The position numbers and the translations under genes were made by a program. This document shows positions 2,529 to 42,277 of a stretch of 64,000 nt of DNA, piece by piece. This DNA is from Hymenochaete sp. R1 (lineage: Eukaryota; Basidiomycota; Agaricomycetes; Hymenochaetales; Hymenochaetaceae). The DNA is taken from contig JAFREE010000015.1 in the NCBI GenBank assembly GCA_019400425.1, positions 186,001-250,000 on the forward strand. Direction: 5' to 3'. Position 1 is the first letter of the stretch; each line of letters starts with the position of its first letter. Below the pieces are notes generated by a model that was given only the letters and a program-made list of their open reading frames with translations, was not told the origin of the DNA and ran no database searches.

Positions 2529-2578
2529 AAAGTCAATGGTAATGAACAGAAAACGGGACCGTCTCTGCTCCGTCTAGG

Positions 2579-5086
2579 ATGTCCCTAATCTCTGCTCTTC
2601 TGACTTCCGTTGGTCTGTCTCTCCCGGCCTACGCAACATTGCCCAGTCTACGTCCAGATGCAGCTTCTGCCTCTTCTTCCAACTTACCTTCTGCCGCGTC
2701 TCCTGCACTTTCCTTCACTCTAGCTTCCTTCGAACCAGGACAGTCTACCTCGTTCAATTTTCCTCCTACAGATGCCAGCAACGCAGCCTCTTCTTTCGAT
2801 TCGTTCTTCCCCGATGCTTCAGAGGTTGGGTTCCCAGGCCCTAGTGCGACAGGCGACGAAGCCGAGGAAGTTGCGACTGCACCAGTATCACTATTTCCTC
2901 TCCATACCGCTGCATTTCCTCTCGTCCAACCGACAGTTTTCGTTGATAGCAGCTCTTCAGACTCCGATTCCGATTCCGAAGATGACGCAGAGGATTCCGA
3001 CCCATCAGAAATGGACTGGGAATCTGACTCGGACTCTGGATCGGACTCAGACTCAGACTCGGACTCGGACCCAGAGGAAGACTTCAATGTACTCAGCTCG
3101 TGGGGAAACTTGTCGCCCGTCTTCGCCTCTTCTTTTGGCTTCCCTCCCTCTGTCTCCGAACGCGTTCCAGACGAATGCGAACTCACTCAAGTGCACCTAG
3201 TGCATCGCCATGGTGCGAGGTATCCTACAACGGGCTCCTCACCCTCGACTTTTCCACCTAAGCTATTGAATGCGACCGTCAATGGAACCGGATTCCGAGC
3301 AACAGGCCCTTTGGCATTTCTTAACGATTGGGAGTACAAAGTAAGAGAGAGACACACACTGGCACAAACTTTCGTTTCTGCTTTTTCATATTGACCCATT
3401 CGCAGCTCGGAGCAGAAATTCTCACTCCGTTCGGAAGACAACAATTGTTCGTCACCCGTCTCATTAAGTATCATTTATCCAAGACGCTGACCCCGATATC
3501 GAACAGATTTGACCTCGGCATCGAGTTTCGTATGAAGTATGGCGAGCTGCTCGAGGAGTTTGCCAATTTGCCGGTCTTCCGGACGACGAGTGAAGCACGT
3601 ATGGTTCAATCAGCGTACGCCCGAGCCAATCCAAAGGCTTAAACACGATCACTTCAAAAAAGAAAAAGAAACTGAGGCATCTACAGCCAGAACTTTGCAG
3701 CCGGATTTTTCGGCGTGCCCGACTTCCTCACCGACTATCGTCAACTGATTATGATCGAGAACCAAGGGTTTAACAACACGTTAGGAGTTTCTTGTGCGAA
3801 TCACGATACCAACCCTTCCATCAGTGGATTGGGTGGCACTGCTAGCTCTGCATGGGCGAATATCTACTTGCAGAACGCTACTGCGAGATTGAACGGGTTT
3901 CTGGATAGTACTGCGAACGGGAGCTTGGTGTTCGATGTTCAGGATGCACTTGCGATGCAGCAGCTCTGTGCGTACGAGGTACGGGGATCATGCCAGTGAA
4001 TAATATGGGTGATCAGCATGAGTGATATGCTCACTGGCTGGACTCTCACGTATAGACGAACGCACTAGGATTCTCGAGTTTCTGCGACCTCTTCACGCAA
4101 GAAGAGTGGGAAGGATTCAATTACTTCATAGGTGTTCCGCCTCTTTTTTCCGATTTCGGTTTGAGTTTCGGATTCGAGCCGTCTAACGACCATTTTGACA
4201 GATCTTGGGTTCTGGTACAGCGAAGGCCCAGGAGGTCCGACAGCAGCTGCTATCGGCATAGGCTACGTCGCCGAGCTCGTCTCTCGTTTGACCCAAACTC
4301 CCATTGTGGACCACAACTCCACGACCAACTCGACGATCACGGACAATAACGTCACGTTCCCGTTGAACCAGCCGATTTACGTAGACGCGACGCATGATAC
4401 TGAGGTAGCTGCAAGTGAGTCATAGAATTTTTGGAAAAGTCCTCTCGAAAGTCTTTGACTTTCTAAATAAATTGAAAACCCGCGCGTCGTAGTCACCGTC
4501 GCCATGAACTTCACCAGCCTAGCTGGTAACGGACCCCTTCCCATCGATCACGTCCCAGATAACCAAGTACGTCCAAACCTATTCCCCACCAACGATCCAT
4601 GATGTACATGTATATCGTACCGTTCAAAACATGCACATTCTCACCGACACGACTGACATCGCACGACAGACATACTTCGTCAACGCCATCGCGCCCTTCG
4701 CCTCCCGCCTAGTAGGCCAAGTCATGACCTGTCCGTGCCCAACTTCGCCCACAGGCACGGACCAGTACATCCGCTGGGTCCTCAACGAAGGCGTCGTCCC
4801 CCTTTCTGGTATCGCAGGCTGTCCTGCACCGCCCAGTGTCACCACAAACACAAACACGAGCACGGACTCCAAGACCCGCTCGTCGACCTCAGACTCAGAC
4901 TCGGACTCAGACTCGGGCACATTCGTACCAGAATCACATGGACTGTGTCCGATCGCTACGTTCGTCACCGCTATGCGCCGCCGTTTGGAAGAGGTGGACT
5001 TTGACTTTGCTTGTAATGGGGACTTTGCGCCTCCTCCTATTGGTGCGGGGGGGATCGTGGACGGGTTGCCGCCCCGGTCTGAGTGA
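2579..5086 (+). CDS. secreted histidine acid phosphatase / phytase-like, paralog A
   Basis: Eight exons (2579-3340, 3406-3446, 3507-3614, 3687-3978, 4056-4131, 4202-4414, 4493-4566, 4670-5086) give about 660 residues. The N-terminus resembles a weak signal peptide. The histidine phosphatase signature RHGARYP is at residues 210-216, and the C-terminal catalytic HD pair is in VDATHDTE. These are the nucleophilic His and the proton donor of the family, which releases phosphate from phytate and other monoesters. Residues of about 122-167 are an almost pure Ser-Asp tract, with a second short one near residue 590. Both are encoded by hexanucleotide repeats and are absent from paralogs B and C. The second intron (3447-3506) starts with a weak GTTCGT donor and is open in frame, so a 20-residue retained form is possible; the paralogs support splicing. 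Substrate specificity cannot be read from the sequence. Confidence 0.88.
3023..3070 (+). repeat. Ser-Asp coding hexanucleotide repeat in phosphatase A
   Basis: Imperfect tandem GACTCG/GACTCA hexamers encode alternating Ser and Asp. They form the core of a longer acidic segment (about 2940-3080). The tract sits just before the conserved domain and is missing in both paralogs. Confidence 0.85.
4886..4916 (+). repeat. second Ser-Asp coding repeat in phosphatase A
   Basis: A shorter run of the same TCAGAC/TCGGAC hexamers encodes SDSDSDSDS in the last exon. It lies at the position where paralog B has a threonine/serine-rich loop. Confidence 0.8.
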
Positions 5087-5676: not shown

Positions 5677-8042
5677 CTACCGAGCCGGCGGCCTCCCATC
5701 CACGATCCCCCCCGACCCGACAGGCGGCACGCCAATCTCGCCATTACAGTCAGAGTCAAAGTCCACTTCTGCGAGACGCTGCTGCATTGCGGAGATGAAG
5801 GTCGTTAGGGGGCAGAGGCCTTCGGATTCGGGGGTGAAGGGTGTAGAGCTGGAGGTGGTGGTAGAGGTGGTGGTAGAGGAAAAGGATGAATTGAGGTTGG
5901 ACGGGGAAGGACAGCCTGCGATGCCGGAGAGGGGGACGACGCCTTCGTTGAGCACCCAGCGGATGTATTGGGTTGTTGAGCTCCCTGATGACGAGGAGGA
6001 GGAAGAGGAAGAGGCGGAGGAAGAGGGGCAGGTCATCACTTGGCCGACCATGCGCGAGGCGAAGGGGGCGATGGAGTTGACAAAGTATGTCTGTGGTCGC
6101 GATACGGAGTAAATGTAAGAGTCAAAGACGTTAGAATGGATCCAATGAGATGTCAACGGAAGATGGGAACGGACCTGGTTGTTGGGTATGTGGTCGGTGG
6201 GCAACGGCCCGTTCGCGTTCAAAGTCGTGAAATTCATCGCAACGATGACTATCCAAGAAGAAAGGGGACACGGGTTCGACTTTATCAGCACATCCGGTTC
6301 TTTCAACTTATCCAAAAAAAAAACCCCCAATAAAATGACTGACTGGAGCTGATATCTGTATCATGCGTCGCATCCACGTATATCGGCTGGTTCAACGGAA
6401 ACGTCACCTCGCTATCCGTGATAGTCGCGTTCGTGCTCGAGTTGTGGGACGCGATGGGCGTGCCGGTGAGACGCGCGACGAGCTCGGCGACGTAGCCGAT
6501 GCCCACAGCCGCCGTGGTTGGGTTCCCCGGGCCGTTTCCGTACCAAAAGTCCAGGTCTGAACGGGGTGGTTGAGAAGACATGAGAGGGGAAGGGGGAAGT
6601 TAGTGGAGATGGGCGTACCGATGAAGTAACGGAAGCCGTTCCATTCTTCTTGTGTGAAGAGGTCGCAGAAGCTCGAGAAGCCGAGCGCGTTGGTCTGCAG
6701 TAGAGATCAGCCACGTCCAACAAGCAAGTGTCAAAGACCGATGAAGAAAGAAAAGGAGAATGTTTGGGTGTCACGTATACAAAAACATATCTACACACCT
6801 CATACGCACACGCCATCTGCATCGCAACAGCGTCTTCCACACCAAACACCAACCCCCCACCAGCCCCACTATCCAAAAACCCATTCAACCTGCCCACCGC
6901 ATCCTGCAAGTACACCTCCGCCCACGCCGCCGCCGCCTCCGACCCGAGCCCGCCAATAGTCGCGTTCAGATCATGGTTCGCGCAAAAGGTTGCGAGCGTG
7001 TTGTTGAATGCGGTCGCGGATGAGTTTGCGTAGGTCTCGATAGTGATGAGTTGTCTGTATGCGGTCAGGAAGTCGGGAATGCCGAAGAAGCCTGCGGCGA
7101 AGTTTTGGCTGGAGAAACAGATGTCAATTTCATTCTGCTTTCCTCCTTCCATGATGTATAGTTGAGATAGTGGCTCACGCGGATTGGACCATTCGCTCCT
7201 CGCTTGTGGTACGGAAGACGGGGAGATTTGTGAAATTCTTGAGGAGTTCGCCGTACTTGACTCGAAACTCGACGCCAAGGTCAAAGCTGGGAGTCCATCA
7301 TATGTTAGACATGTACAATCAATTTAGCATGATACACGATACACGTACAGCTGCTGCCGACCGAAAGGCGTCAAGATCTCCGCTCCAAGCTACATATTTT
7401 CATTGAGCACAAAACAGCTTCAAAAATCTGCTACCAATTGACCTTGTACTCCCAAGAATTCAAAAACGCCAACGGCCCCGACGCTGTAAACCCGGTCCCA
7501 TTCACAGTCGCATTCAATACTTTTGCCGCAAACCCAGCCGGCGTAGAGGCCGAGGAGCCAGAAGTCGGGTACCGTGCCCCATGACGATGGAGCAAATGGA
7601 CTTGGGTGAGCTCGCACGCGTCCGGGACGCGTTCAGACACGGAGGACGGGAAGCCAAAGTTGGAAGCGAAGACGGGGGAGAGGTTTCCCCAGGATTTGAG
7701 GACGTTGAAATCAGGGTCAGGGAGCGAAGTGGTGTTGTCGACGTCTTCGAATGTGTCTGGCTGGACAAGAGGGAAGGCGGCTGTGTGTAGAGGGAAGAGC
7801 GGGATGGGAGCCGTTACGACTTGTTCGGCCTCGTCGCCTGTCGGGGTAGGGCCTGCGAAGCCTACGTCGGATGCGTCGGGGAAGAAGGAGTCGAGGGAGG
7901 CGGCTGCGTTTGGGGCATCTGTGGGTGGGAAGAGAAAAGAGGTCGACTGGCCTGGTTGGAAGGAGGATGAAGTCTGGGTAGCATCGACGCATACAGTTAG
8001 AGTGAGAGCAGCGAGGAGCCGAAGGAGAGGGAGAAAGGACAT
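5677..8042 (-). CDS. secreted histidine acid phosphatase / phytase-like, paralog B
   Basis: Eight exons on the minus strand (8042-7443, 7389-7349, 7286-7179, 7108-6799, 6694-6619, 6556-6344, 6248-6175, 6090-5677) give about 611 residues. Six internal boundaries match those of paralog A, with exons of exactly 41, 108, 76, 213 and 74 nt in both. A clear signal peptide (MSFLPLLRLLAALTLTVCVDA) leads the protein. RHGARYP is at residues 153-159 and the catalytic HD pair is in VDATHDTD. Where A has its Ser-Asp tract, B has a short ordinary linker. Instead it carries a run of more than ten serines at 5990-6035 and a Thr/Ser cluster in the last exon. Secretion and phosphomonoesterase activity are expected from the family. 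The first donor is GTCAAT, weaker than its counterpart in A. Confidence 0.9.
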
Positions 8043-8087
8043 CTTTGAAAGTCGACTCGACCGAGTCTCAACCCGATCCTTTTTATT

Positions 8088-8095
8088 ATTTTATA
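8088..8095 (-). promoter_or_regulatory. TATA box of phosphatase B
   Basis: TATAAAAT on the minus strand lies 46 bp before the ATG at 8042. Confidence 0.6.
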
Positions 8096-9010: not shown

Positions 9011-10657
9011 CTAATGTAATTGAAAGCCCCGGTTATGCCTCACCCTCACCGCTTCAGGCCTCGTCGACGCATTCGGCATCCCCTCCCAAATCGGATCCAC
9101 ATCAGGCCCATCCAAGTCCCCAGCCCCATCCCACCCCCAACACCACACATGCTCCGGCCCAGGGACAAACCCAATCTCCTCCGCCTCCTCCTCCACAAAC
9201 AACCGATCATGCGGCCCGAACCAGCTCCTATCTTGCGGGTCCGAGCGCGGGTCGTCCGGGAGGCCCCCGAGGCGAGTGTACCCGCGGATGGCGGAGAGGT
9301 TGCGTCGCGGCGGGTGGACGATCTCGAACACTTTGTTGTCGTACGCGAGCTTCACGCGCGGGACCATGATGATGCGGCCGTAGCCCGCCGCCCAGTAGTC
9401 GTTGCAGAGAAGAGAGCATTCGGAGGCGGAGCACTCGTTTTGGCGGATACGCGCCATGCGGAAGCGCACGTAGGGGGCGGCGTAGAGGGGTGCGGGGTCT
9501 AGGACGGCGATACCGTTCCAGCACGATTGAACCTGGATGGGGAGGTGTCGTTGGAATCGTTCGGAGGACGCTTGGTCGTGGAAGACGTCTTCGAACGGGG
9601 TGTTTTCAAGTGCGGTTCCGTTGATGTCGCGAGCGACCCAGTTGTCGTAGAACACAGGTTGACGCTAGCATACAGTATTAGTTCAGCCATAAAAGATAGA
9701 AGCGCGTTAGTGGGGAATACTTGCAATTTCGTCATGATACATGTAATCTGCGGCGCAAGTCACGCCGGCGTTCTGTCTTCGGCTCTGCCATATGAGCTCG
9801 AGTATGTCGTCTACGCAGGGAAGAATGTCATTCATGAAGATGACGGTATCAAAGTACTCGTTTTCAGAGTCTCTGAGCTCATAAAGGGGTGCCATAGCAG
9901 CATTTCGGACTTCCGCAAGATATTCGATTCGGTGCGCGTGGATACCCCTCTTCCTACTACTCGACTTGATGATGACGCGCATACCAACGCTATGCATCAG
10001 CGCATCAAAGATCCTAAGCAACGCTTGCGTCTGGTCAGACGACCCGTTCTCATAAATCGACACAAACACGTTCTGGTACCCCACAATCGCCCCAATCTTG
10101 AACATGGTCGAGAACAGGTCCGGGATAACATCGAAGGAATTGTACAAGTTGATGGCGAAGAAGTATTTATGGTTCTGAGGTGCCAGGTCCCGTCGGATCC
10201 GTTTCGGAAAGGAAGCGGCGTAAGCGGCGTTGGCGGCGTCGTCGAGGCCGTTGAAACCGAGTCCCAGTGAGCTCACCCATGAGGATTTCGAGGACGCTTG
10301 GTGTCCTATGAGATGCTCATATCTGTCAATAGCCTGCTCAGCATAAAGCGACTGTACGTTCCGAGTACACTCGCGAGTGTATCTCGGAGTTAAAGTGGTG
10401 AGGAGTTCGAGGACGCGCTTGCGCTGCTTGAGCGTGGGGACCGCGATAGGGTGTTTAGGAGCATACGAGCCAAACGAAGAGTGTAAAGTAGACAAACGGC
10501 CTCCGCGCCACCCGGACCCAGAGTCTTTGTCCTTGGACGAGTTGGAGGATAGGCGAGCGAGAAGGAGGCCGAGACAGACGCCAATGACGAGGAGAAGGGG
10601 CGCAGGCAGTCGGAGGCGGGTTAAAGTGGCAAGGGGACCTCGGCCTTTGAGAGCCAT
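9011..10657 (-). CDS. CAP59/CMT1-type alpha-1,3-mannosyltransferase-like protein (GT69)
   Basis: Two exons (10657-9725, 9664-9011) give 528 residues. The start is the first true ATG; the frame is open upstream but has no ATG. Residues of about 9-40 contain one hydrophobic segment after a basic stretch, as expected for a type II Golgi enzyme. The luminal part shows the family hallmarks: FFAINLYNS, SIYENGSSDQT, IFMNDILPC and later QSCWNGIAV. Cryptococcal CMT1 and CAP59 of this family act in capsule or cell-surface glycan synthesis. In a non-capsulated mushroom the acceptor is unknown. The only phase-consistent intron (9665-9724, 60 nt) begins GCAAGT and is therefore a GC-AG intron; using the nearby GT would break the conserved QPVFYDNWVARD segment. 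Confidence 0.87.
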
Positions 10658-10723
10658 TGATAGGCCTTCAACGTTGGCGTCAGCGTCGGCAGCGAAGACG
10701 ACGGGGTGGGGCCGGGGACACAC

Positions 10724-11290
10724 AAGTGAGACTCAAGAGTTTGAGCGACAAGCGTGGACGGATGAACGGAACGGCTAAGTGCTGGCGGCGTGTCCGTGGA
10801 AAAGGTTTTGGCCGACTTTGAGAAAAAGAAAGCCGCGAAGCGAATTCACAGCGTGAAGAGGTGATCGACGTATTTGATTTATCACATGACTTCATGATGA
10901 CAGCGTGGGTAAGTCAATACTCTTTGGGCTTATGAACTGCTATACAACAGTACGTAAGCACGCACGATGGTGCAGGAACTCGTAAGGAAGATATTGAGTC
11001 GGTCCACGATATCCTCAAGACAAGGTGCGTTTCCAAAGATACTGTCTTTATGCTAGGTTTTGACTTAAGTATTACAGGCTTCAAGAACTCATGTGAGTTT
11101 ATTTGCATAAGTTGCTGGTCGGAAGCGGTCTTTGGAACTTGGAAATGGCCAAACGTTGGATGGATTGGTGTTGTTGCAGGCCAAAGAGCACGAGCTTTGG
11201 GAACTTTGTGCCGGGGACATGAGCACCTATGTGGAAGGATTGGACAATATGGGCTTGAGCTGACGACGTACCGATTTCCTAGATTAAAAC
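10724..11290. other. intergenic region with a possible small unresolved gene
   Basis: From 10894 on the plus strand several short coding-like exons with good splice signals can be joined (see findings). The last junction is out of phase, so no CDS is called. The right end is the promoter of the eL34 gene. Confidence 0.4.
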
Positions 11291-12314: not shown

Positions 12315-14562
12315 ATGAAGCTGTCTAGTTCGAAAGTGCTCCTGGCTATCTGTTTTGTCTCGTCTCCAACATTGGCAAAGAGGCGCGTTCCACGTGCTGA
12401 AGCATATTCGGCTTCCTCCTTTGTTGGGTTGAGCACAAGCGCTGGTTTTCCGGTAGCGGAGGCCTCTAATGCTGCAACGGACTACGATTCATATTTCCCT
12501 GACGAGTCTGCCGTCAACGAAGCTGGCCCGACACCAAGTACGTTCGTCTTCTATCCTTCACAGACTTGTCCAGCATTACGACTTAACATTCCATTGTTCT
12601 TCACGCATAGCTGGAGATGAAGCAGAGCTCCTCGCAACTGCGACTGCCCTCCCCAAAGTCTCGGGCGCATATCCTCTCGTCGACCCGTCGACGACTGGCA
12701 ATGACTCAGACTCGTCTTCTTTTGACGTGATGAAGAGCTGGGGTAACCTATCCCCGATGTGGTCCCTTGAGTCAGATACGTTCGGGATGCCTGATGCGAA
12801 CCCACTCGTGCCAGAGGGTTGCACACTAACACAAGTGCATTTCGTGCACAGACACGGTCAGCAGAACTTCGTTATCATCTCTTTCTTGCCATACTATTTA
12901 TTGACTACGCTTTTGTGCAATGGAAAGGTGCCAGGTACCCGGCCGACGACTCATCATTCAGCGAACTTGGTGCGAAACTGAATAATGCAACTGTTAACGG
13001 AACTGGGTTCACTGCGAAAGGTGATTTGGAATTCCTTAATACATGGATGATCAAGGTGAAAGTACTTTATTCAACACGATGACGCTGAAAGCTGAGATTG
13101 GATCCGGACCTTAGCTTGGTGGAGAAGTCTTGACACCATTTGGGCGTCAACAACTGTACGTGGACACCGGCCCTAATGACTTCTACTAATCAATAATATT
13201 AATGTACTCATATCCAGCTTCAACATGGGTGTGGCTTTCCGCCTAAAGTACGGTGAACGCCTCAAAGGGTTCACTGACTTGCCTGTTTTCCGGACTACCT
13301 CGCAAGATCGTATGGTCAAATCTGCGTAAGTCCTTCCATTTTCTCCCGATTCCGAATGCAAAGGAATATAGTGAACGTTTCACTCCCAGTCAAAATTTTG
13401 CCGCTGGCTTCTTTGGTGTCCCAGAATTCCTCACGGACTACCGTCAATTGATAACGATCGAGGACTGGACTGACCCGACGAACAACAATACCCTCGCAGC
13501 GTATTGTGAGAACTGGGAGCGAATCGGCGACATTGGGGGAACGATGGAGGAACGTTGGGTAGATGTGTATTTGAAAGATACAGTGTCGAGGATAAATGCG
13601 CTTATCGATGGTGTCAATTTGACAACCACAGACGTGTTTGCCATGCAGACTGCTTGCGCGTATGAGGTATGCGAAGCCCATCTCTTCTTCCGTAGGGTCA
13701 AACTTAATGTGATGTGCAGACCGTTGCTCTTGGAAGTTCGGCGTTCTGCCCCTTGTTCACTGAAGAGGAATGGAAGGGTTACAACTATGCTATTGGTGGG
13801 AATATCTACTGAACGGGACAGTGTTTACAGTGCTTATCATTTGGCAGACCTTCTCTTTTGGTATGGGTACGGACCAGGCCACCCAGCAAGTGCCGCGCAG
13901 GGAATCGGCTATGTCCAAGAACTCGTGTCTCGCCTTACGCATACACCGATCGCCGTTGCGAACTCGTCTGTAAATTCGACGATTGTGAACAATAACATCA
14001 CATTCCCGCTCGACCAGCCCATTTATGTTGATGCGACGCATGATACAATGATCACTGTTTGTGAGTTGACTCTGAAAGGTGGCGAACGAGTTCTACGGGC
14101 TGACTCGTCGACTAATACACTTAGATCTTATTGCGATGAATATCTCGTCTTTGGCTGCCAATGGACCGTTGCCCACTGATCACATTCCAGAGAATCAGGT
14201 ATGATGAAGCGTTTATGCTCCTACCTGATAATACGTGCTCAATGCATCTCCTGCAGACATATTTCTCGAACAAAATCGCGCCCTTTGCCGCCCAGCTCGC
14301 CGGCCAAGTCATGACTTGTTCGTCCGACTCCGACGCATACATCCGTTGGATCCTCAATGACGCCGTTCTCCCACTAACAGGCGTGAACGGATGCCCAGAC
14401 AATAAAGACGGCCTCTGTCCTCTCGAGACGTTCGTGGACGGAATGAAGCAACGGATCACCGAAGTGGACTTTAACTTTGACTGTAATGCCAATTACACGT
14501 TCTCATTGGACGATGATCAGATTGTGGATGGAAGGCCACCGTTGAGTCAGAGACCGTCGTGA
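12315..14562 (+). CDS. secreted histidine acid phosphatase / phytase-like, paralog C
   Basis: Ten exons (12315-12537, 12611-12856, 12928-13055, 13115-13155, 13218-13325, 13390-13666, 13720-13795, 13848-14060, 14125-14198, 14257-14562) give about 563 residues. A signal peptide is followed by KRR, possibly a processing site. The RHG signature is present as HRHGARYP, and the catalytic HD pair is in VDATHDTM. Five internal exons have the same lengths as in paralogs A and B. C has two extra introns: one in the N-terminal part, and one that splits the glycine codon of the RHG motif itself. It is the shortest paralog and lacks both the Ser-Asp and the poly-Ser loops, so it may resemble the ancestral form. 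Function as for A and B. Confidence 0.88.
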
Positions 14563-30485: not shown

Positions 30486-32912
30486 TCATATATCTTCCTC
30501 TCCTTCTTCATCCCAGTCAACGGCTTCCAGGGCTGCTTCGCCCTCCGCTTGCAATTTATCTAAGCCTGTAAGCTTCTCGAGGAAACCAGGTTCATTAAAC
30601 GCATTCAAGAGAATCTTGAATCCATCCTTCTCGTAAGCTCTCAGTACCTAACGAAATTGTTTGTACGCAGTAATGATAGTATAATATAATGACAACGCAC
30701 CGCCTCGCTGCATCCCGTACACTTGTCGTACGATGCGCCAACGATAGGCATCGTACGGAACTGCGCTAGGAAACCGCGTAGTTGATGAGGCACAATACCC
30801 AAGACACTCTTGAAAGCCGCAGAGGCTTCGTCTTCGTTGTCTTTGAAGTCCGGAGGAGGGGCCGGCGCGTGAATACTGAATAAGTAATGAGAACAATTAA
30901 CTCTAAGTTGAAGCGTGAGCACTACTTTACCCTTTGGGATGTTGCAATACAGACACAAGAAGCTCAACAGCGGTCGCAGAGGCTATCGCTGCTAAGCCAG
31001 GCCGGGTGACGGTGCACATTTGGTCGAGCGTACGATCAGTGAGCGACTACACGTATATTAGGGCACCCGACAGTCAGATTTTGAGTGAAAAAACAAACAT
31101 CAGCAGGTGCTACAACGTCATTGCAATAGTAGCAGCCAAGAGCTGCCGAATCAGATACGGTGGTACGAGCCCCATGTCGCATAACAAGATATGAATCGAA
31201 ACCAAGGGCTGCGTTTAACACAATCTGAAAACTTGTCAGCAAGTATTCTGCAAGATGCAAACGTTGAGGAACCTTGTTCTTAGCTTTGCCGAGCATTGTG
31301 GGCAACCATCGGCTCTCGCGTGAGTCCATAAGAAGGAACACTGCATCATGATCGTCAAAGAGCCTTTCGAGCTTTTTAACGTCGGCCTGTACATGGTCTA
31401 TACTTCCTGGAGGTACAGGGTGTCCAGGCATAGGTATACCCAAGGCAATGCCTTTTGCATTCTATGAAATCTTAATTTGCAATTTAGGTGACAAGGCGTA
31501 CTTTAACTTACGACACCGGGAAAGATACGCTTTAGCGCGTCCGCAGCACACTGTGCCTTGGCTTTTCCACCTTCCAAACAATCGCCAAACTCGAAGAGAG
31601 GTTGGCGCACGGGGTTGCTAAACGAGACCGTCGCACTGTCTACGAGTGTAATGTTACGAACACCCCAACCCAAAAGAGTACGAGCGACATAGCACCCAAG
31701 GGTCCCGGCACCTAGCAATAGCACACGGGTTGCGGCGATTTTTTCCAGGTCAAGAGCGGGAAGAATTCTCCAGCGCATGAGCTTGAGATTCAAATCCACC
31801 GCTTGATCAGCGAGCCGCGTCGGGTCCATCATGGGCGCAAGATCCGCAAGCCGCGCCCCTAGTTTGCCTTGTGTATTCTTCTCCCATCCCACTGCGGATG
31901 GTCGTGCCAATGAAGAGCTAGGCTCGGAACTTTCAGCAGGTACTTCGACGGTTCCAATACGACTACGCCATGTCGCTCCCTCTCGCGGTACGTCAGTATC
32001 CCGCCAGCTTATAACTTGTACGCGAGCTCCTCCTTGATTGAAAAATCGAGACCTCAGATAAGCGAGGGCATTCCGGAGAGGCCATCCAGGATGCTGAGGA
32101 CTTGCAGACGGATCGTAGAAGCACACAAATTGCTGCGCAGGCACAACTGCAGAGAAGAAAGAAGCGAAGTCTTTGAACGGAGCCACCTCAAATTTTTTGG
32201 GGTCAGACTGCAATGGCCTAGCTAAAAAGATCGATGAAGGTTGATGGGAGATCGCTGCATGAATCGACAATAATGCGTCTCGCCCGACGACTTCCTCTGC
32301 AGCAGTCCAACCAGGGTCGGCTTGCGACCAAGCTGGTTTCGCGACAAGAGCGGGGAATGCAAACCAGTAGTAGTACTTGTACTTCTTGAGATCTGCAAAT
32401 GTTATAAGAAGAAAGCGATTGAGATTATCGATATCTCCCGTCGACCTCACGCCTTCCCAGACCTGAAGTATGAGTATAAGCATGGTTCCTAAATCCAATA
32501 TAATCGCACTCACCTCATCAGCCACTTGATTGAAGAGAGCAGTTTTGTCGGCTGATTTGAATTCCTCAATGGTATTGAAATTCTTGAACGTGCCTCGACA
32601 AGTGACTGAATGCGGAGGGGCGCTGTAATGAAGGGTTTGGTTCTTGCCTGGTCCAGAGCATTAGGACACTCACGGACTCTCCAAGTTGAAAGCATCTCCA
32701 CCGACAGTTAGATGACAACCGAGATCTACTTCTTTGCCCGTCTCTCTATCAATGACTGTACGGCCGACAGTGTATGTTGCGGTAATGGGTAGCACCTGCT
32801 CGGATAGTTTGAGAACATCGATCTTAAGTCGCGTAAGCTCGTGCCAGAAAGCGGGTTGCACGACGGAAGAAAAAGGTGTGAATTGCACGATAGATTCCTT
32901 TGACACCATCAT
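30486..32912 (-). CDS. ATG7: ubiquitin-like modifier-activating enzyme ATG7
   Basis: Eight exons (32912-32674, 32622-32514, 32462-31512, 31461-31273, 31224-31099, 31046-30931, 30875-30701, 30647-30486) give 688 residues. The N-terminal ATG7 domain begins [18 protein letters not shown]. The E1 adenylation domain has the ATP-binding [17 protein letters not shown] and [10 protein letters not shown]. The catalytic cysteine lies in [12 protein letters not shown] and is followed by the family block [12 protein letters not shown]. The acidic C-terminal tail ends in EEGEEDI. ATG7 activates Atg8 and Atg12 and passes them to Atg3 and Atg10 in autophagy. Two adjacent ATGs open the frame; either may be used. 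Confidence 0.95.
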
Positions 32913-33255: not shown

Positions 33256-33761
33256 ATGGTCAGGATTGCCCTTCTTTCTGAATCGAAGTGGAACTGCAGT
33301 CTGACATGATAAATCATTGTTAGGCTTCAGTAGACCTTGCTGCTTCATACGCCGCTCTTATTCTCGCCGATGATGGCGTCGAAATCACTGTATGTACTTT
33401 TCTGTTGGCATGCCTAATGGAATCTGAAGCGACAAGGCCAGGCGGACAAAATTCTCGCGATAACGAACTCCGCGTCTGTCGAGCTTGAACCAATATGGGC
33501 ATCATTATTGGCGAAGGCCCTCGAGGGAAAGGACGTGAAGGATTTATTGTCAAACATCGGTTCAGGGGCTGGAGCACCTGCGGCGGTCGGTGCCGGCCCT
33601 GCCGCTGGCGGCGCTGCAGCCGCGGATGCGCCAAAGGAAGAAGAGAAGAAGAAGGAAGAAGAGAAGGAGGAGAGCGACGACGATATGGTGTGTATATACT
33701 CCTTTGAATGTCGAACGCGTTTATTGACATTGTGTCGCAGGGTTTCGGCCTCTTTGATTAA
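33256..33761 (+). CDS. RPP1: 60S acidic ribosomal protein P1
   Basis: Four exons (33256-33258, 33324-33389, 33442-33687, 33741-33761) give 111 residues. The first exon is only the ATG, spliced at GTCAGG onto GCTTCAGTAG to give [15 protein letters not shown]. The body has the P1 signature [20 protein letters not shown] and LLSNIGSG, an Ala/Gly-rich hinge, a run of Glu and Lys, and the universal SDDDMGFGLFD end. P1 pairs with P2 on the ribosomal stalk and recruits elongation factors. The one-codon first exon is inferred from family start sequences and is the least certain part. Confidence 0.92.
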
Positions 33762-34345
33762 ACTTCTATATATGTTTTCGCTCTCGTTTCCTCATCGACG
33801 CGCACGCTCTGTACCCTTTCGCCTTTGCCAGCTGAACACCGCATCACGCCACGATGTAATCCTATGTATTTGCGTTCTCAAAATGTTCATGCCCTGCACA
33901 GACAAACAACCAAATCCTGTCTTCCACACGACTTATGCGGTAATGGTACTCAAGCCAAAGCAAATATAGCCTATGACGTATTTCTGTCTTCGTTTCGTTT
34001 TATTGGTGGACTGCGAAATTCAAGTACTCACCTGTTAAAGCCTTGTGCTACTTTCGTGAGCTTTATTGGGTTGGGGTATGTCAGACTCAAGGTCAATTAT
34101 TGCTGATCTCTACTTCTCAAGCTCTACAAGGATTTAGTGCGCTCGACATGGAATCTGACTTCTCATTTCACGTTCGTTCCCCTAAATTCGTGATCGGTCT
34201 TTCCACTCCTGAAGTGTGGCGCACGTCGATTAGTTCTGCTGTCGCTTAAATTTGCAATGTTTACTTTGCCAATCAATCTCGACGTTCAGTATAAGAATCC
34301 TAGGTCTTCTTCTGTGGCCATGGCGCAAAGTTCCCTCCTGCCATC
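33762..34345. other. intergenic region before the modular gene
   Basis: About 580 bp without a supportable gene. Short frames run into the start of the modular gene in other phases. Confidence 0.5.
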
Positions 34346-37300
34346 ATGTCGTCTGGCTACAGCAAAGACGACTCCAGCAAGAGACCAGTTCAATATCAAC
34401 CAGACACCCACAACCCGGATTTGCCACCGCGAGCTCCTAAGAGGATCTACACTCGTAATGCAGAAGAACACAAAGGGCCCAGCAGTAGTCGTTTGCTGGA
34501 AATCCGTAAACACGCTCATGAAGAAAGACGTAGCGCCTTGAGTGAAGTCGGAAAGCACGGAGAATTACCAGGTGGATTTAAAGAAGCTGATAAATATTCA
34601 GAGGACAAAGAATTCGAAGACCTTCTTAGTGGTACGCCTTTAACATAACTGCACTGTCGGTATTTTCTCACTATAACTCATGTCTAGAGGCCAAAAAGAA
34701 GTTCCCGGACTCAAGGGTCATATACTTTAAACCAGAAAATGAGGATCCACTTCATTATGATTGGATTGTCAAACGTAAGTACGACTTACGCCCTGTCTTG
34801 ACCCATCTGATAGCCATTACAGTGGAAGTTCCCGAGACTGATGATCATCCGAAATTCGTCATTGAAACCAAGGGCGTTGCTTGCAAAATAGCCATCAAAG
34901 AAATGAAAAGGGATGTAAATGATTTTAAGGTTCTACCTCGAAAGAAAGCAGAGGATCTTTATAATGGCATGACCTTTACTTGATGTCGGGGTAAGAATAC
35001 TGATACTCAGTCCTAGCTCTACATGGACCTAACCCCGTCATTCTTCACAAAGAAATGGCAGTCAGAGGAGTCTTTCATAGAAGGAAGGAACATGTAATTC
35101 GCGGTTCGTTACCCTCCCATGTATACGAACCAAACACTGAAAGAAGCTCGTAGTCATTCATGATAAATGGACTTGGGATTTCCAAGCTAGTAATCTCAAA
35201 AAATGCCAGGAAGCGGCGCATGAGCTCGTTCCATTTAAAATGGTGCACATTGAGGATGATTTGGTGCAGGGCAATAAAGATTGGGACATTATTTTCCAAC
35301 GTATGTAAATATTTCGCTTTGATTGCACCGCGTCAAAGCTGATATTTTTTGCAGTTCTCAAAACGACGGGAAAATCCCGAGTGTTCGTCCGTGTGGCCAC
35401 TGATAGAAACCCTCAGAATACCTTGAGATGCAAGCAACTTCCTCATTATTCATTACTTCGTTTACTGAATTTCTTCCGTCATTTAGTGACACATCCTGAA
35501 TATGGTATTCAGATTGAAGTCGGGGACGAGGTTTTCGAAAAGGCCACTAAAAAACTTTCTCACGAGCTACTTCAACAATGGGAAGATCTCGCGATTCAAA
35601 CAAGCCAAGAAAGCCGGTATAATTCGGATAAGATTTGGAAAGAATTGTGCAAGCTTGGCATAGAATGGATTGTCGTAACAGATCCTTCGATACAAAAAAG
35701 CGTGTTTCTCCCACTATTTAGAGGTATGTATTTTCAGTAAGCTTCTATAAAGTTAAGCTCATCGATCACACGAAAGAATTAATTAAAAATTACAAGGGTA
35801 ATGGGCACAAGATCATGTATCGGATAGAGCATCGCAGGTCGCAGGTCAAAGGTACGCGCCTTTTCTCTTTTTCATAAAATCTAGTTCTGATTTTATTATA
35901 GTCGAATTGGAAGACGGATTTACTCTAGTCCAAGCAGAGGCGGTCACCATGAGTGGCGCTGTCGGACAAGCCCTCAAATTCGTGGAATATAGACCAATTG
36001 ATAAAAGCGATGAAGAGTATTTCGAGCTACGCCGGAGTGGGTACATGATGGTATGAATCATCTGATTTCAAAACTCATACGTTGTATAGAGATCAAGGAG
36101 AATGGGTATACGAACGCGAGATTGTTCGAGAAAGAATTGATAGATGAGTCTGACGTGAAGAATGGTTTGACATTCGCAATCAGGCGTAAGGATTCTACAC
36201 GTCATGCAAACTTTTGCTCACACGACTACAGTTGCGCAGACCTGGGAAGGATTCCAGCTGAAGGGTGAAAATAAGGCAGATGCAATTAATAGAGCGAAGG
36301 AACACATAAATTTTACAAAGTTGGACCGCGATCGTTTTGCTTTCATTTTTCATGAAACGAAAGAAAACATGGACAAGGTGGCAGACTTCAGTGAACTTTT
36401 CCGACGTAAGTTCGTTTCCACCCACCAAAATTCTGTCTCTGACTACGCCCTCATAGACCAGAAATCTTTTGCAAACTGCGAACTTTATTATCGAGAGGTT
36501 CCGCGAGTAAACAAGAAAGGAAAAGTACTACAAGGAAGGACTATTTATCAATTTAAGCGTGAGCTCTTTAATCTTCGCGGCAGGATTCGCTTCTAATTCG
36601 TTGAAACAGTTTGCCACCCTCATCAGGGAGAAGTCTGTCGAATACAACCTACAGAAGGGCTGAAAACTGCTGTGCGCTCCATGACACGAGAATTGGAGAA
36701 GTCTGCAGCCGACGACACTGAAAAGTATATCTTTGACTGGACTTACGACAATACCATAGCGTTACCTGAGAGCGGTGCTCCTGCGGTTTGGAAAGATATA
36801 TTTGCAACGATCAACAACATTGATTTCATCAAGCTAATAGACCGTAAGCCAATTTTCGCCTTTACCTTCAGCATGGCGAAATTCCTTCACTAATGCTTTG
36901 CCTTATGGACGACTCAGAATTACGAGAACGAAGGCTTGACGCAAGAAGAAAGTTTGAAGGTGGAGTGCATACACTGCAAGGTGAGCCTTTCACGCTATTG
37001 CGCTTATGCTTGCATAGATCGAGTTCGATAATTTCCAGTGATAAAGAAAAGAGACGACGGCCAAATAAAAGTCCTGATTGAAGTGGAAAGTTTTTCGCTG
37101 GGCTTCGCACTGATGCAGATGCTGCAAAATCTTGAGTTTGAGAAGGCGCGAATTGAGCCTCCATTTCTGGATCTGTATAACAGTACGTTTTCTGCCCTTC
37201 TTTCCATCCTACAACGATGTGACTTCCGCACTTGATCACACATTGACGTCTGTTATCTCTTGCAGTCCTTGCTAAGAAAGGCCAATCGGACGCGAAGATT

Positions 37301-39318
37301 TACTGGAAGTGGGATGAGTCCAAGTTTTTCTCGGAATACAATGTTTATATAATCCGAGGTTTGTTAAGATTCATTTATAATAACATGAGTACTCACTAAG
37401 AAACCTTTAGTACAATATAACGACGAGGAAAAGCAATACTTTCAGAAGTATGGACTCACACTGGAACAGGCAGCTCTCCAGGTAGAACATCACCTTAGAT
37501 TCAAGGTGCTGACGCACCATGATGAAAGGTGTATCGGCAATAAAGATTGTCAGGAACTCTTTCGCCGTGAGTTAAAATTATGCTATTCTCCTCTGACCAG
37601 CATGTTTGACTGTTCATCCAAGTGCTTCGAACCTATGGAATGTGTAAAGTGTTTTATCGTGCTCGTGAGCTTCCCGGCAAAGGCGCACAACACAAGAGAA
37701 TGTACGACATCGAAAGTGAGTTTAAATTCATTTGGCGAGTCAGAGGATTCATGATTGTATTAGTCGTTCACCCAATCTGGGGGAAGCTCTTCAAGGCTAA
37801 GGGAGATGACTTGTATAAAGCGGTCCGAGCCATCTCCGAAGAAGCAGCTTCGGGACGAATATACGCAGAGAACAAGCTCACGTATGATGGAAGATTTTAC
37901 CAATACATAAACGATGATGTAGGACTACAGGTACCGGAAGGAATCAAAAACAAGGAGCATAAAACAGCTTGGAAGGAACTGGAAAATGACATGATCCTGG
38001 ATCCTATCTTCAAAGGTAAGACCTGCATGTCCCGCTTGAGCATCTATCTCACTATAACCACGATAGTATGCCGGAAGAAAAAGATCGATGGCTATCGCGT
38101 GTACGTCGGTCAAGACAGGCATGACGTTAAAGTTCGATGTGAGCTTACTTTCTGGATAACTCACCCTCCTTTATTAACATTGCGCAAGTTGAGCATGAAG
38201 ATATTCCGGGAGGCGAAATGGTCAGATCGCTACACTGCCGTCTGGACCATACTGCCGAATATGTTGCATACGAGCTGGAGTTCGATAAAGTAGATAGCGA
38301 CGACAAAGATTTTGCTGGCTTGTTTACGTGTAAGCTGCCCTCGTTATCTTTTCCTTTCCTTTCTCCGGATTAAACTATGTGGCTTCGATGCTGACCAAGC
38401 CTTGTGAAGACTTACAGAGGGTGAAGGGCGTGCCTAGAGACGAGTGTCATGTGTATGTCAAGCAGGTAAACCTTCGAGACACGCGGTCGAAATATCTCCA
38501 TGGAGAGAAAATTTCTTACCCATCTGGTCCGGAGGGTACGTCAAGGAGTATTTCGAAACGTTATCGTACGTGCTTCAAACTTGAGCCATTTTTTGCAGGA
38601 GCCTAGTCTTAAGTTATGTTCTAGTAAACTCGTCCAGCACTGCTTGGGCAGTAAAAGGTAACTCCGCATTTCAATGTTTTATGTTTATCATCTGACGTTT
38701 AGATTAGTGGTGCATCCGACTTTGGGATTTCAGAAGTACCATCAAACCAGGAAAAATGCCGCTAACGCCATGATAGAACATCTCTCATATGTCGAGATAA
38801 CTGAAGAGAACTTCGAAAGCGAAGAAATACGTCAGGCTCTCCCCTCACTAGCAATCGAGATAGCCGATGAAGAAGTCGCTCGCATTTGGAAGGAAGATAT
38901 ATTTGAGAGTGCGTCGCGTATAATAAACAGCAGAAAAGAGATTGATGATCTTTGTGTCTTGTCAGGGCTCGAGAAGGTTGGACGTTCTCGAATTTTTGTA
39001 AAGGAAGAATCAGCGGGCAAGGCAGTAACGTGGCATGCTAAGCGTGAGCCTACCAAACCTCTCTTGAATGACCATCTGACCGAATCACTAAATTGCTGTG
39101 CAGTTGATCACGCTTACTACGGCTTGGTGGTCAAGGTTCGATGTGTGACATTCAAGGAAATGACCAAGGACTTCGAGAAGAAGATGCAAGAGGCGAAGGA
39201 CAAACGCTTTGGGTGGGAGAATGCAGAGAAAAGGATTGAAAGAATGGGCAAGCCAAAGAGGAAGAGGAAGGGGAAAGATGACAAGAGTAAGAAGGGCAAG
39301 GAGAAAGCTGAGAGTTAG
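34346..39318 (+). CDS. large modular repeat protein of unknown family (about 12 two-exon modules)
   Basis: My model has 25 exons: 34346-34631, 34688-34774, 34823-34966, 35017-35103, 35154-35300, 35355-35429, 35487-35723, 35777-35851, 35902-36036, 36090-36185, 36232-36405, 36457-36558, 36610-36843, 36918-36980, 37039-37182, 37266-37358, 37411-37566, 37623-37715, 37764-38015, 38067-38138, 38189-38329, 38410-38565, 38625-38657, 38708-39043, 39104-39318. They give about 1210 residues, with every intron in phase 1. After a basic N-terminus of about 90 residues, short A exons (a hydrophobic strand such as KVFYRAREL or RVFVRVATD, often ending in Ile/Val-x-Arg) alternate with longer B exons. B exons read V-x-H-P-x-x-G, a strand, then a helix and Trp/Asp-x-x-Phe-Arg. 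The C-terminus is a lysine-rich tail that may be a nuclear signal. No signal peptide, membrane span or catalytic motif is visible. I do not recognise the family. Exact ends of exons 3, 6, 9, 22 and 23 are uncertain. Confidence 0.75.
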
Positions 39319-39626: not shown

Positions 39627-41594
39627 ATGCATCGTCTCAGTAGCCGCTCTACGTCTGTAGCTCGTCGTGCAGTGAAGTCGGCGAAGCCCGTTCTCGCACG
39701 CGGTGCACACAAGGAAATTAAATTCTCTAATGATGGAAGGGCTGCGATCCTACAAGGTGTTGACGTCTTGGCAAAGGCCGTCAGCGTCACCCTTGGGCCA
39801 AAGGGTGCGTGCAGTCATAAAGATGTATCAGTAAGATGTTTTCTTACTCAAGCACTTTTTCTTAGGACGGAATGTCATTATCGAGCAGTCCTTCGGTGGT
39901 CCGAAGATTACCAAGGGTATGTTCTCTTCTAGCCTCGTGTTCTGTTATATCTCCGATATTTATCTCAGCCCCTTTGCTACAGACGGGGTGACAGTCGCGA
40001 AGTCGATAACACTGAAGGACAAATTTGAGAACCTGGGTGCTCGGTAAGTGTTATTTTCTCATTCTCATGACTCTGAGTAATTACTTAAACCATTTCAAGT
40101 CTCGTGCAGGATGTTGCTCAGAAAACGAATGAGATTGCTGGTGATGGAACGACGACGGCAACAGTGTTGGCAAGAGCTATCTATGCCGAGGGTGTCAAAA
40201 ATGTCGCCGCTGGTTGTAACCCCATGGACCTTCGGAGGGGTGCGCAAGCTGCTGTTGACCGCGTCGTGGAGTTCTTGGCCAAAAATGCGAAGCCAATCAC
40301 GACTACGGAAGAAATAGCACAGGTGGCTACGATCTCTGCAAATGGCGATGCGCACGTCGGCAACCTTATTGCAACGGCAATGGAGAAGGTTGGAAAGGAG
40401 GGCGTCATTACAGTAAAAGAAGGACGCACTATTGAGGATGAGATCGAAATAACGGAGGGAATGCGCTTCGACCGAGGATATATTTCGCCGTACTTCATCA
40501 CGGACGTCAAGAGCCAAAAGGTGGAGTTTGAGAAACCTTTGGTCCTTCTATCAGAGAAAAAGATCTCCCTTCTGCAAGACATACTTCCGTCGCTCGAAGC
40601 CGCCGCCCAGCAACGCCGACCCTTACTCATCATTGCTGAGGATGTAGATGGAGAGGCCCTCGCGGCCTGTATCCTCAACAAGCTTCGCGGCCAACTCCAG
40701 GTAGCTGCCGTCAAGGCTCCTGGCTTTGGTGACAACCGTAAGAGTATCTTGGGTGACCTCGGTATTCTCACTGGTGGGACCGTATTCACCGATGAGCTCG
40801 ACATTAAACTTGAGCGGGCGACACCTGACTTGCTTGGCTCAACGGGCTCGGTCACAATTACAAAAGAAGACACCATCTTCCTCAACGGTGAAGGCGCAAA
40901 GGATGCGATCCAAGCACGTTGTGAACAGATTCGTTCCGTTCTCAACGACGTGACGACCAGTGAGTATGACAAAACGAAACTGCAGGAACGTTTGGCCAAG
41001 CTCTCCGGTGGTGTCGCTGTCATCAAGGTTGGCGGTTCAAGCGAAGTCGAGGTTGGTGAGAAGAAGGATCGCTACGACGATGCCCTCAATGCGACTCGTG
41101 CTGCTGTCGAGGAAGGCATCCTCCCAGGTGGTGGTGTTGCCCTGCTGAAGGCTTCGCTGGCTCTCCCCACCAGCACGAATGGTACCACCGCCAACACCAG
41201 CTCATACACAGTTGACCCCATCTCAACCGCGAACTTTGATCAAGAGCTCGGTGTCTCCATCATCCGTCGCGCGTTGAGCCAACCTGCCCGGACTATCCTA
41301 ACGAACGCTGGCGAGGAGGCTTCCGTCATCGTTGGCACGCTCACTGCGCAACACGGTGCACCTGAACAATTCTCGCAGGGCTACGATGCCAGCAAGGGCC
41401 AGTACGTCGACATGATCAAAGCCGGAATTGTCGACCCTCTCAAAGTCGTCCGGACCGCTCTCGTCGACGCGTCGGGCGTTGCCAGTTTGCTGACGACGAG
41501 CGAAGCGTGCATCGTAGAGGCTGAGGAAAAGGAGAAGCCTGTACCGGGTGGTGGCATGGGTGGAATGGGCGGTATGGGAGGCATGGGTTTCTAA
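39627..41594 (+). CDS. HSP60: mitochondrial chaperonin HSP60
   Basis: Four exons (39627-39804, 39866-39916, 39983-40043, 40100-41594) give 594 residues. The basic, Ser/Arg-rich N-terminus ([19 protein letters not shown]) is a mitochondrial presequence. Group I chaperonin blocks follow: [17 protein letters not shown], the ATP-binding [14 protein letters not shown], the apical-domain [18 protein letters not shown] and the C-terminal repeat [11 protein letters not shown]. It folds imported matrix proteins together with HSP10. The start is the first ATG giving a complete presequence. Confidence 0.97.
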
Positions 41595-42160: not shown

Positions 42161-42277
42161 GGCAAGATGGTCGAGCGGTCTAAGACGTGTGACTCAAGCT
42201 TCAAAGCTTATCTGTCGTTGAGACAGGTGTATTCTCATCTGCGTAAGCGGGCGTGGGTTCAAATCCCACTCTTGTCA
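42161..42277 (+). tRNA. tRNA-Leu (anticodon CAA) with intron
   Basis: The acceptor stem GGCAAGA pairs with TCTTGTC (one G-U), followed by discriminator A. The D arm reads TGGTCGAGCGGTCTAAGA, and the T arm is GTGGG-TTCAAAT-CCCAC. The long variable arm TCTGC-GTAA-GCGGG marks a class II tRNA. By alignment with other fungal tRNA-Leu(CAA) genes the anticodon loop is CTCAAG, with an intron of about 33 nt right after it. The anticodon stem TGTGA/TCTCA has one U-U mismatch, so the exact intron ends are uncertain. A run of T follows at 42280-42283. Confidence 0.85.

Follow-up and report, generated by a model that had tools for sequence, protein, structure and literature searches.

In most genomes, genes whose numerous exons are alike in both size and phase are said to be rare (PMC9168663), and two published cases serve for comparison. 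The M. sacchari megacycle is a single large gene encoding 15 internal repeats, in which many introns recur at identical or similar positions (PMC9168663). The 90-bp-exon arrays of Tetrahymena, which encode leucine-rich repeats (LRRs), have more than 96% of their introns in phase 2 (PMC6564038). Within one basidiomycete gene family, by comparison, intron phases are reported not to differ from 1:1:1, with 28 of 64 in phase 1 (PMC3584928). Here, we describe a gene at positions 34346-39318 on the plus strand of a 64,000-nucleotide stretch of DNA from Hymenochaete sp. R1 (contig JAFREE010000015.1, positions 186,001 to 250,000), referred to below as the window. The gene is predicted to encode twelve copies of a two-exon module, and the array can be read as four sets, each of three module types. 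A sequence-only reading of the window had proposed about 12 such modules in a giant protein of about 1210 residues. The modules are borne out by twelve A-B exon pairs whose mutual similarity exceeds that of shuffled sequences, and the single open spliced frame also stands. The length comes out shorter, and at 137 kDa for a model of 1172 residues the word giant was overstated.

The preferred model of the gene consists of 26 exons and 25 phase-1 introns, with a predicted product of 1189 residues. The first exon (34346..34631) carries the start codon and the N-terminal 95 residues and ends within predicted helix 1 of module 1; it is followed by 12 pairs of exons, termed A and B, with one A exon (A11) split in two. 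A curated model, in which the exons were joined by hand, has 25 exons, 24 introns, all of phase 1, and 1172 residues with no internal stop. The statistics given below for repeats, coding, charge and hydropathy were computed on this curated model, which also provides the coordinates unless stated otherwise. Within the exons, the coding frame contains a single stop, the terminal codon, whereas the two alternative frames contain 49 and 98. The GC content by codon position is 0.545, 0.316 and 0.468, and the T content rises from 0.226 in exons to 0.335 in introns, which are mostly 44-83 nucleotides in length.

Because phase had guided some of the choices in the curated model, the splicing was also modeled by a dynamic programming procedure that scores donor, acceptor, branch site and length and is not given the intron phase. 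At an intron cost of 7, this phase-blind program returned 24 introns, all 24 of which are in phase 1, and matched the curated model exactly at 22 of its 24 introns. Lowering the cost to 6 gave 24 phase-1 introns and one of phase 2 (25 in total, 22 curated introns exact), whereas a cost of 8 gave 22 introns, every one in phase 1 (19 exact), and the addition of an exon reward at that cost gave 17 out of 17 in phase 1 (13 exact). Imposing phase 0 or phase 2 at a cost of 7 made the models worse by about 60 and 95 score units, respectively. Applied to the adjoining HSP60 gene, the model of which is unchecked, the program produced phases of 0, 1, 2 and 0, and hence it has no built-in preference for phase 1. 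Nearly all the internal introns share one phase, as in a same-phase exon array; if phases are taken as equal and independent, the arithmetic chance that 24 of 24 introns fall in one phase is about 1e-11.

The curated model and the phase-blind model at a cost of 7 disagree at two places, 38536-38707 and 35430-35486. In the first of these, the phase-blind program adds a small exon of 51 nucleotides, A11b (38607..38657), which is missing from the curated model. With this exon included, module 11 scores 22.1 bits, rather than 14.9, when compared with a profile built from the remaining eleven modules. The second is a putative GC-AG intron (35430..35486; donor GCAAGC, 57 nucleotides, stop-free) that the program retains, whereas the profile favors its splicing, with module 3 scoring 23.0 bits when it is removed and 15.5 when it is kept. 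A further putative GC-AG intron (34967..35010; GCATGA..CTCAG, 44 nucleotides), with an unusual donor, is chosen by both models. Two other splice models were set aside. One, an early and loosely penalized model, gave 43 introns of mixed phase and was rejected as over-split; the other, an exon-reward model without GC donors, gave either 18 introns (16 in phase 1) or 17 (14 in phase 1) and broke down around 34915-35190. As a separate observation, nine of the 24 curated introns have lengths divisible by three, seven of them without a stop. Their retention would add 16-20 residues at exon borders, and alternative splicing could vary the array.

Similarity among the modules was assessed in several ways. 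Across the 66 module pairs, each compared with 100 composition shuffles, 13 reached p <= 0.05 where 3.3 are expected, and the highest values were found for M6-M9 (z 8.8), M3-M12 (7.2), M3-M11 (6.6) and M3-M9 (5.3). The mean z was 0.70 for A with A and 0.82 for B with B, and -0.20 for the A with B control. When the modules are re-cut across the exon borders, such that each comprises the end of one B exon together with the next A and B, all twelve can be aligned, with no invariant column. In a leave-one-out hidden Markov model test, 10 of the 12 modules outscore all the shuffles that were scored (485-500 of the 500 generated for each module), with a mild favorable bias in that the column layout comes from an alignment that includes the module left out. 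Two copies weigh against a uniform repeat: module 2 is marginal, being exceeded by 7 of 500 shuffles, and module 7 fails, being exceeded by 103. A profile of types 1 and 2, as defined below, matches a profile of type 3 with a probability of 94% in global and 96% in local alignment. The protein thus contains internal repeats with introns at corresponding places, the exceptions being the split of A11 and the failure of module 7. No DNA-level tandem repeats of module length were detected, only two short repeats, which implies that the duplications are old or that the gene is evolving quickly.

These results agree with the earlier impression of copies that are highly diverged yet retain their order and exon borders, as seen in the phase-1 introns, the repeat tests and an alignment lacking invariant columns, and the pair scores and leave-one-out models supply the significant internal similarity on which that impression depended. 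The five positions proposed as B starts (34823, 35487, 36610, 37764 and 38708) are the exon starts of B1, B3, B6, B9 and B11. The motif V-x-H-P-x-x-G, ascribed to the B segments at large, has a narrower distribution: HPxxG is present in B3, B6, B9 and B11 and in no other B segment, with a related DHAYYG in B12. The period of three described next, and a predicted domain that crosses the exon borders, are additions to the sequence-only reading.

Module similarity is highest between modules that lie three apart, with a mean z of 2.71 against 0.33, a separation matched in none of 5000 permutations. Five periods, 2 to 6, were tried; for period 6, itself a multiple of three, p was 0.001, and for periods 2, 4 and 5 it ranged from 0.55 to 0.92. 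In set 1, module 1 (type 1) is made up of A1 (34688..34774) and B1 (34823..34966), module 2 (type 2) of A2 (35011..35103) and B2 (35154..35300), and module 3 (type 3) of A3 (35355..35429) and the long exon B3 (35487..35723). Set 2 contains module 4 (type 1; A4, 35777..35851; B4, 35902..36036), module 5 (type 2; A5, 36090..36185; B5, 36232..36405) and module 6 (type 3; A6, 36457..36558; long B6, 36610..36843). Set 3 is composed of module 7 (type 1; A7, 36918..36980; B7, 37039..37182), the weakest copy, module 8 (type 2; A8, 37266..37358; B8, 37411..37566) and module 9 (type 3; A9, 37623..37715; long B9, 37764..38015), which has the top leave-one-out score of 34.2. Set 4 comprises module 10, of type 1 by position only (A10, 38067..38138; B10, 38189..38329), module 11, of type 2 by position (A11a, 38410..38535; A11b; B11, 38708..38908), and module 12, of type 3 (A12, 38966..39043), whose last exon, B12 (39104..39318), includes the lysine-rich C-terminal tail and the stop. 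The B lengths in codons repeat every three modules, being 48, 49 and 79 in set 1, 45, 58 and 78 in set 2, and 48, 52 and 84 in set 3, with set 4 (47, 67 and 72, the last including the tail and stop) as the exception.

Comparison of whole sets gives a score of 133 (z 18.7) for set 1 with set 3 and of 120 (z 17.1) for set 2 with set 3. Within the last set, module 12 is closest to type 3 in both halves when A and B are scored apart, and B11 is closest to type 2 (z 4.1 versus 2.05 for type 3). Several scores tell against a fully regular array. Neither set 1 with set 2 (z 1.0) nor set 3 with set 4 (z 1.9) is significant; set 2 with set 4 (score 70, z 5.0) remains under the best of 300 shuffles (75); and set 1 with set 4 (score 85, z 7.7) is in register only over the second half. 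A11 is slightly closer to type 3 than to the type 2 predicted from its position, and the type of module 10 is not settled by the pairwise scores, with type 2 slightly above type 1 in both halves. By these scores, set 4 is the least regular of the four. Two refinements were considered and rejected. A fourth module type, surviving as a stub in the long B exons with their shared WKE motif, was not upheld, as only one of six tail-tail comparisons fell below p 0.05. Nor was a hybrid origin for module 11, combining an A of type 2 with a B of type 3, since B11 is closest to type 2 and A11, if anything, to type 3.

Column averages of hydrophobic moment and of propensity suggest, for each re-cut module, an amphipathic first helix, then three short strands, then another helix. 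The second predicted strand is interrupted by the border between A and B, and the first predicted helix by that between B and the next A; with exon borders inside predicted elements, the exon pair is unlikely to be the folding unit. There are points against this fold. The secondary structure comes from simple propensities, which also call the loop after strand 1 helical. AlphaFold returned a mean predicted local distance difference test (pLDDT) score of 45 for a contiguous translated piece that included a read-through intron, and of 57 for B9 supplied with twelve B-exon rows, the latter model having three helices (14-41, 44-49 and 63-77) but lacking strands.

The explanation that we favor, at a little better than an even chance, is that the gene encodes an intracellular protein in which twelve small domains, predicted to fold as helix-strand-strand-strand-helix, are arranged as four tandem sets of three types, and that this array arose by duplication of exon pairs and acts as a multivalent scaffold. 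The evolutionary half of this explanation, tandem exon-pair duplication, is well supported: a unit flanked by phase-1 introns can be copied without breaking the frame, and a two-exon unit bounded in this way would have been duplicated, three copies would have become distinct types, and this triple block would then have been duplicated to four. With less certainty, the sequence may have changed rapidly or over a long time while the fold and exon borders were kept, and each domain may bind a partner, either protein or nucleic acid. The intracellular multivalent binding role is held with moderate to low confidence. No signal-peptide-like start was found (none of the first 30 windows, each of 19 residues, exceeds a hydropathy of -1.5) and no membrane-like segment (maximum 19-residue hydropathy of 1.24). 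The last 32 residues are lysine-rich with a net charge of +9, and this basic tail hints, as a guess, at a nuclear or RNA-linked place. Weighing against nucleic-acid binding, the net charge of the array is near zero and provides no support for it. It is possible, although doubtful, that the module represents an undescribed domain family, exon-paired and bounded by phase-1 introns, deployed four times three in one rapidly evolving scaffold of mushroom-forming fungi. In such a family fold and exon borders would outlast sequence, and the three types may correspond to three binding surfaces repeated four times.

The absence of a named family, remarked upon earlier, holds across all the collections searched, with no significant match in Pfam, the PDB, NCBIfam or a large protein database. 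The whole protein had no Pfam match at E <= 10, and the 12 single modules matched four families, one module each and none significantly: ENGASE1 Ig-like (0.088, the best), DUF2584 (0.11), PCSK9_C3 (0.19) and Ribosomal_S30AE (0.21). These were discarded as weak, single and mutually inconsistent, as were the equally inconsistent matches to consensus queries, DUF4209 (0.012), HPTransfase (0.11) and SH3_VIII-1_N (0.31). In the PDB, the whole protein gave no match, the module profile found one chain, RF2 (0.59), and the consensus two AsnC-type chains (0.051 and 0.068), all too weak to retain. NCBIfam matches of the whole protein to TusC (0.077) and YhhC (0.15) are far below the family cut-offs. A single 172-residue piece compared with contigs of viral and of prokaryotic origin gave 11 and 29 pattern matches, respectively, and no relative, and no description of the gene or module was seen among the papers that literature searches listed. 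Within its own genome (27.8 Mb, 336 contigs), all 19 sequence matches and 10 consensus matches lie within the gene itself, which looks like a single-copy gene, although distant paralogs may escape such a search.

Of the alternatives, the one that survives best, to which we give somewhat less than an even chance and which is compatible with the favored explanation, is that the gene belongs to a conserved fungal family without a Pfam entry, whose Agaricomycete orthologs are too diverged for a word search. In a database of 5.8 billion proteins, none of 5169 word-sharing candidates for the whole protein scored at E <= 1 and none of 93 for residues 768-872 at E <= 10, so that no close ortholog was seen, which speaks against such a family. 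However, that search finds candidates through five-residue words held in common, using no more than 100 such words, and samples sparsely, such that low-identity orthologs could be missed and an absolute claim of orphan status is not made. As a control, HSP60 gave 7990 of 8000 scored candidates at E <= 1e-100, and all of the organism-named proteins among the 120 matches listed are from fungi, from which it follows that the database holds many Agaricomycete proteins. The HSP60 exon shows identities of 94% and 90% with two proteins, and the best match that carries a species name, from Rickenella mellea, stands at 89%. Judged from this one gene, the organism would be an Agaricomycete, perhaps close to the Rickenella clade of Hymenochaetales. 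A conserved family would also accord with the intact frame and with the adjoining housekeeping genes, which are represented by an ATG7 exon (31506-32660, minus strand), a 60S acidic ribosomal protein (33418-33966) and the HSP60 exon (40089-41591). The exon signature offers a route to diverged orthologs across the Agaricomycetes, and, more generally, splice phase and repeat profiles can recover a gene model where sequence searches find no relative.

The double-stranded RNA-binding domain (dsRBD) has the topology helix-strand-strand-strand-helix, and proteins that contain it usually carry one to five copies. As a variant of the favored explanation, with which its odds overlap, the modules could be very diverged dsRBDs, and the protein a twelve-dsRBD-like RNA-binding or RNA-derived scaffold; we regard this as unlikely. 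With dsRBD proteins (PF00035) the gene would share the suggested order of elements within about 70 residues, together with the presence of tandem copies; the register is kept in a global profile alignment, and the C-terminus is lysine-rich. It differs from them in its twelve copies, in an undetectable sequence similarity and in the lack of a KKxAK-type motif in the module alignment. No sequence test supported an assignment to PF00035, which was accordingly dropped: none of the 12 modules matches dsrm in Pfam at E <= 10, a PF00035 search of the genome found 11 places at E <= 10 and none in the gene, and profile alignment to 10 dsRBDs gave a probability of 0.1% (global) and 0.6% (local), with column-shuffled dsRBD profiles scoring as high in 7 of 60 and 2 of 60 cases, respectively. 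The roughly neutral charge of the array points the same way, and RNA binding by the array is a putative property and a minority reading.

That the exon model or repeat is an artefact of splice-site choice, or the gene a decaying pseudogene, is very improbable, as the phase-blind model, the frame constraint and the leave-one-out profiles all agree, despite the two putative GC-AG introns with one odd donor, the stop-free introns in multiples of three and the mixed phases of the loose early model.

Elsewhere in the window, matches to histidine phosphatase branch 2, which we take to be phytase-like, occur in three separate open reading frames (2546-3391, plus strand; 7434-8090, minus; 13247-14176, plus), suggesting a small local cluster. 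A CAP59-type mannosyltransferase (PF11735) lies between them at 9710-10732 on the minus strand. On the other side of the gene, the Rfam tRNA model matches 42161-42277 (plus strand; 117 bases, 42.2 bits), where ARAGORN in its bacterial setting reports no tRNA; as this length exceeds that of a plain tRNA, the match is possibly intron-containing.

Secretion by means of a signal peptide is a trait of the aphid bicycle and megacycle family, and the hydropathy of the N-terminus gives no sign of it here. The idea that the gene is likewise a secreted, fast-evolving effector draws on many small exons of one phase, rapid divergence and a repeat array, as reported for bicycle and megacycle genes (PMC9168663), and it is hardly credible given that N-terminus and the lysine-rich tail. 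Compared on gene structure alone, the aphid genes (PMC9168663) and the fungal gene have in common numerous small internal exons that share a phase and, presumably in the fungal case, very rapid divergence. They differ in that the aphid introns are of phase 2 rather than phase 1, the M. sacchari megacycle extends to 118 exons over about 100 kb as against 26 exons here, and the aphid genes are strongly expressed in the salivary gland with a proposed effector role (PMC9168663), whereas the fungal gene lacks a hydrophobic N-terminus and has mostly short introns. The Tetrahymena LRR genes similarly form tandem exon arrays with an extreme bias toward one phase, which the authors credit to successive duplication (PMC6564038). 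Those genes, however, number in the thousands, with exons of exactly 90 bp, phase-2 introns and a known LRR domain (PMC6564038), whereas a single gene was found here, with two-exon units of variable length and no recognized domain. The gene therefore seems to resemble both systems in its apparent mode of growth, and membership of either family is not claimed. Same-phase arrays built by exon duplication have been described from aphids (PMC9168663) and from a ciliate (PMC6564038); to these, the Hymenochaete gene would add a two-tier fungal case without an assigned family.

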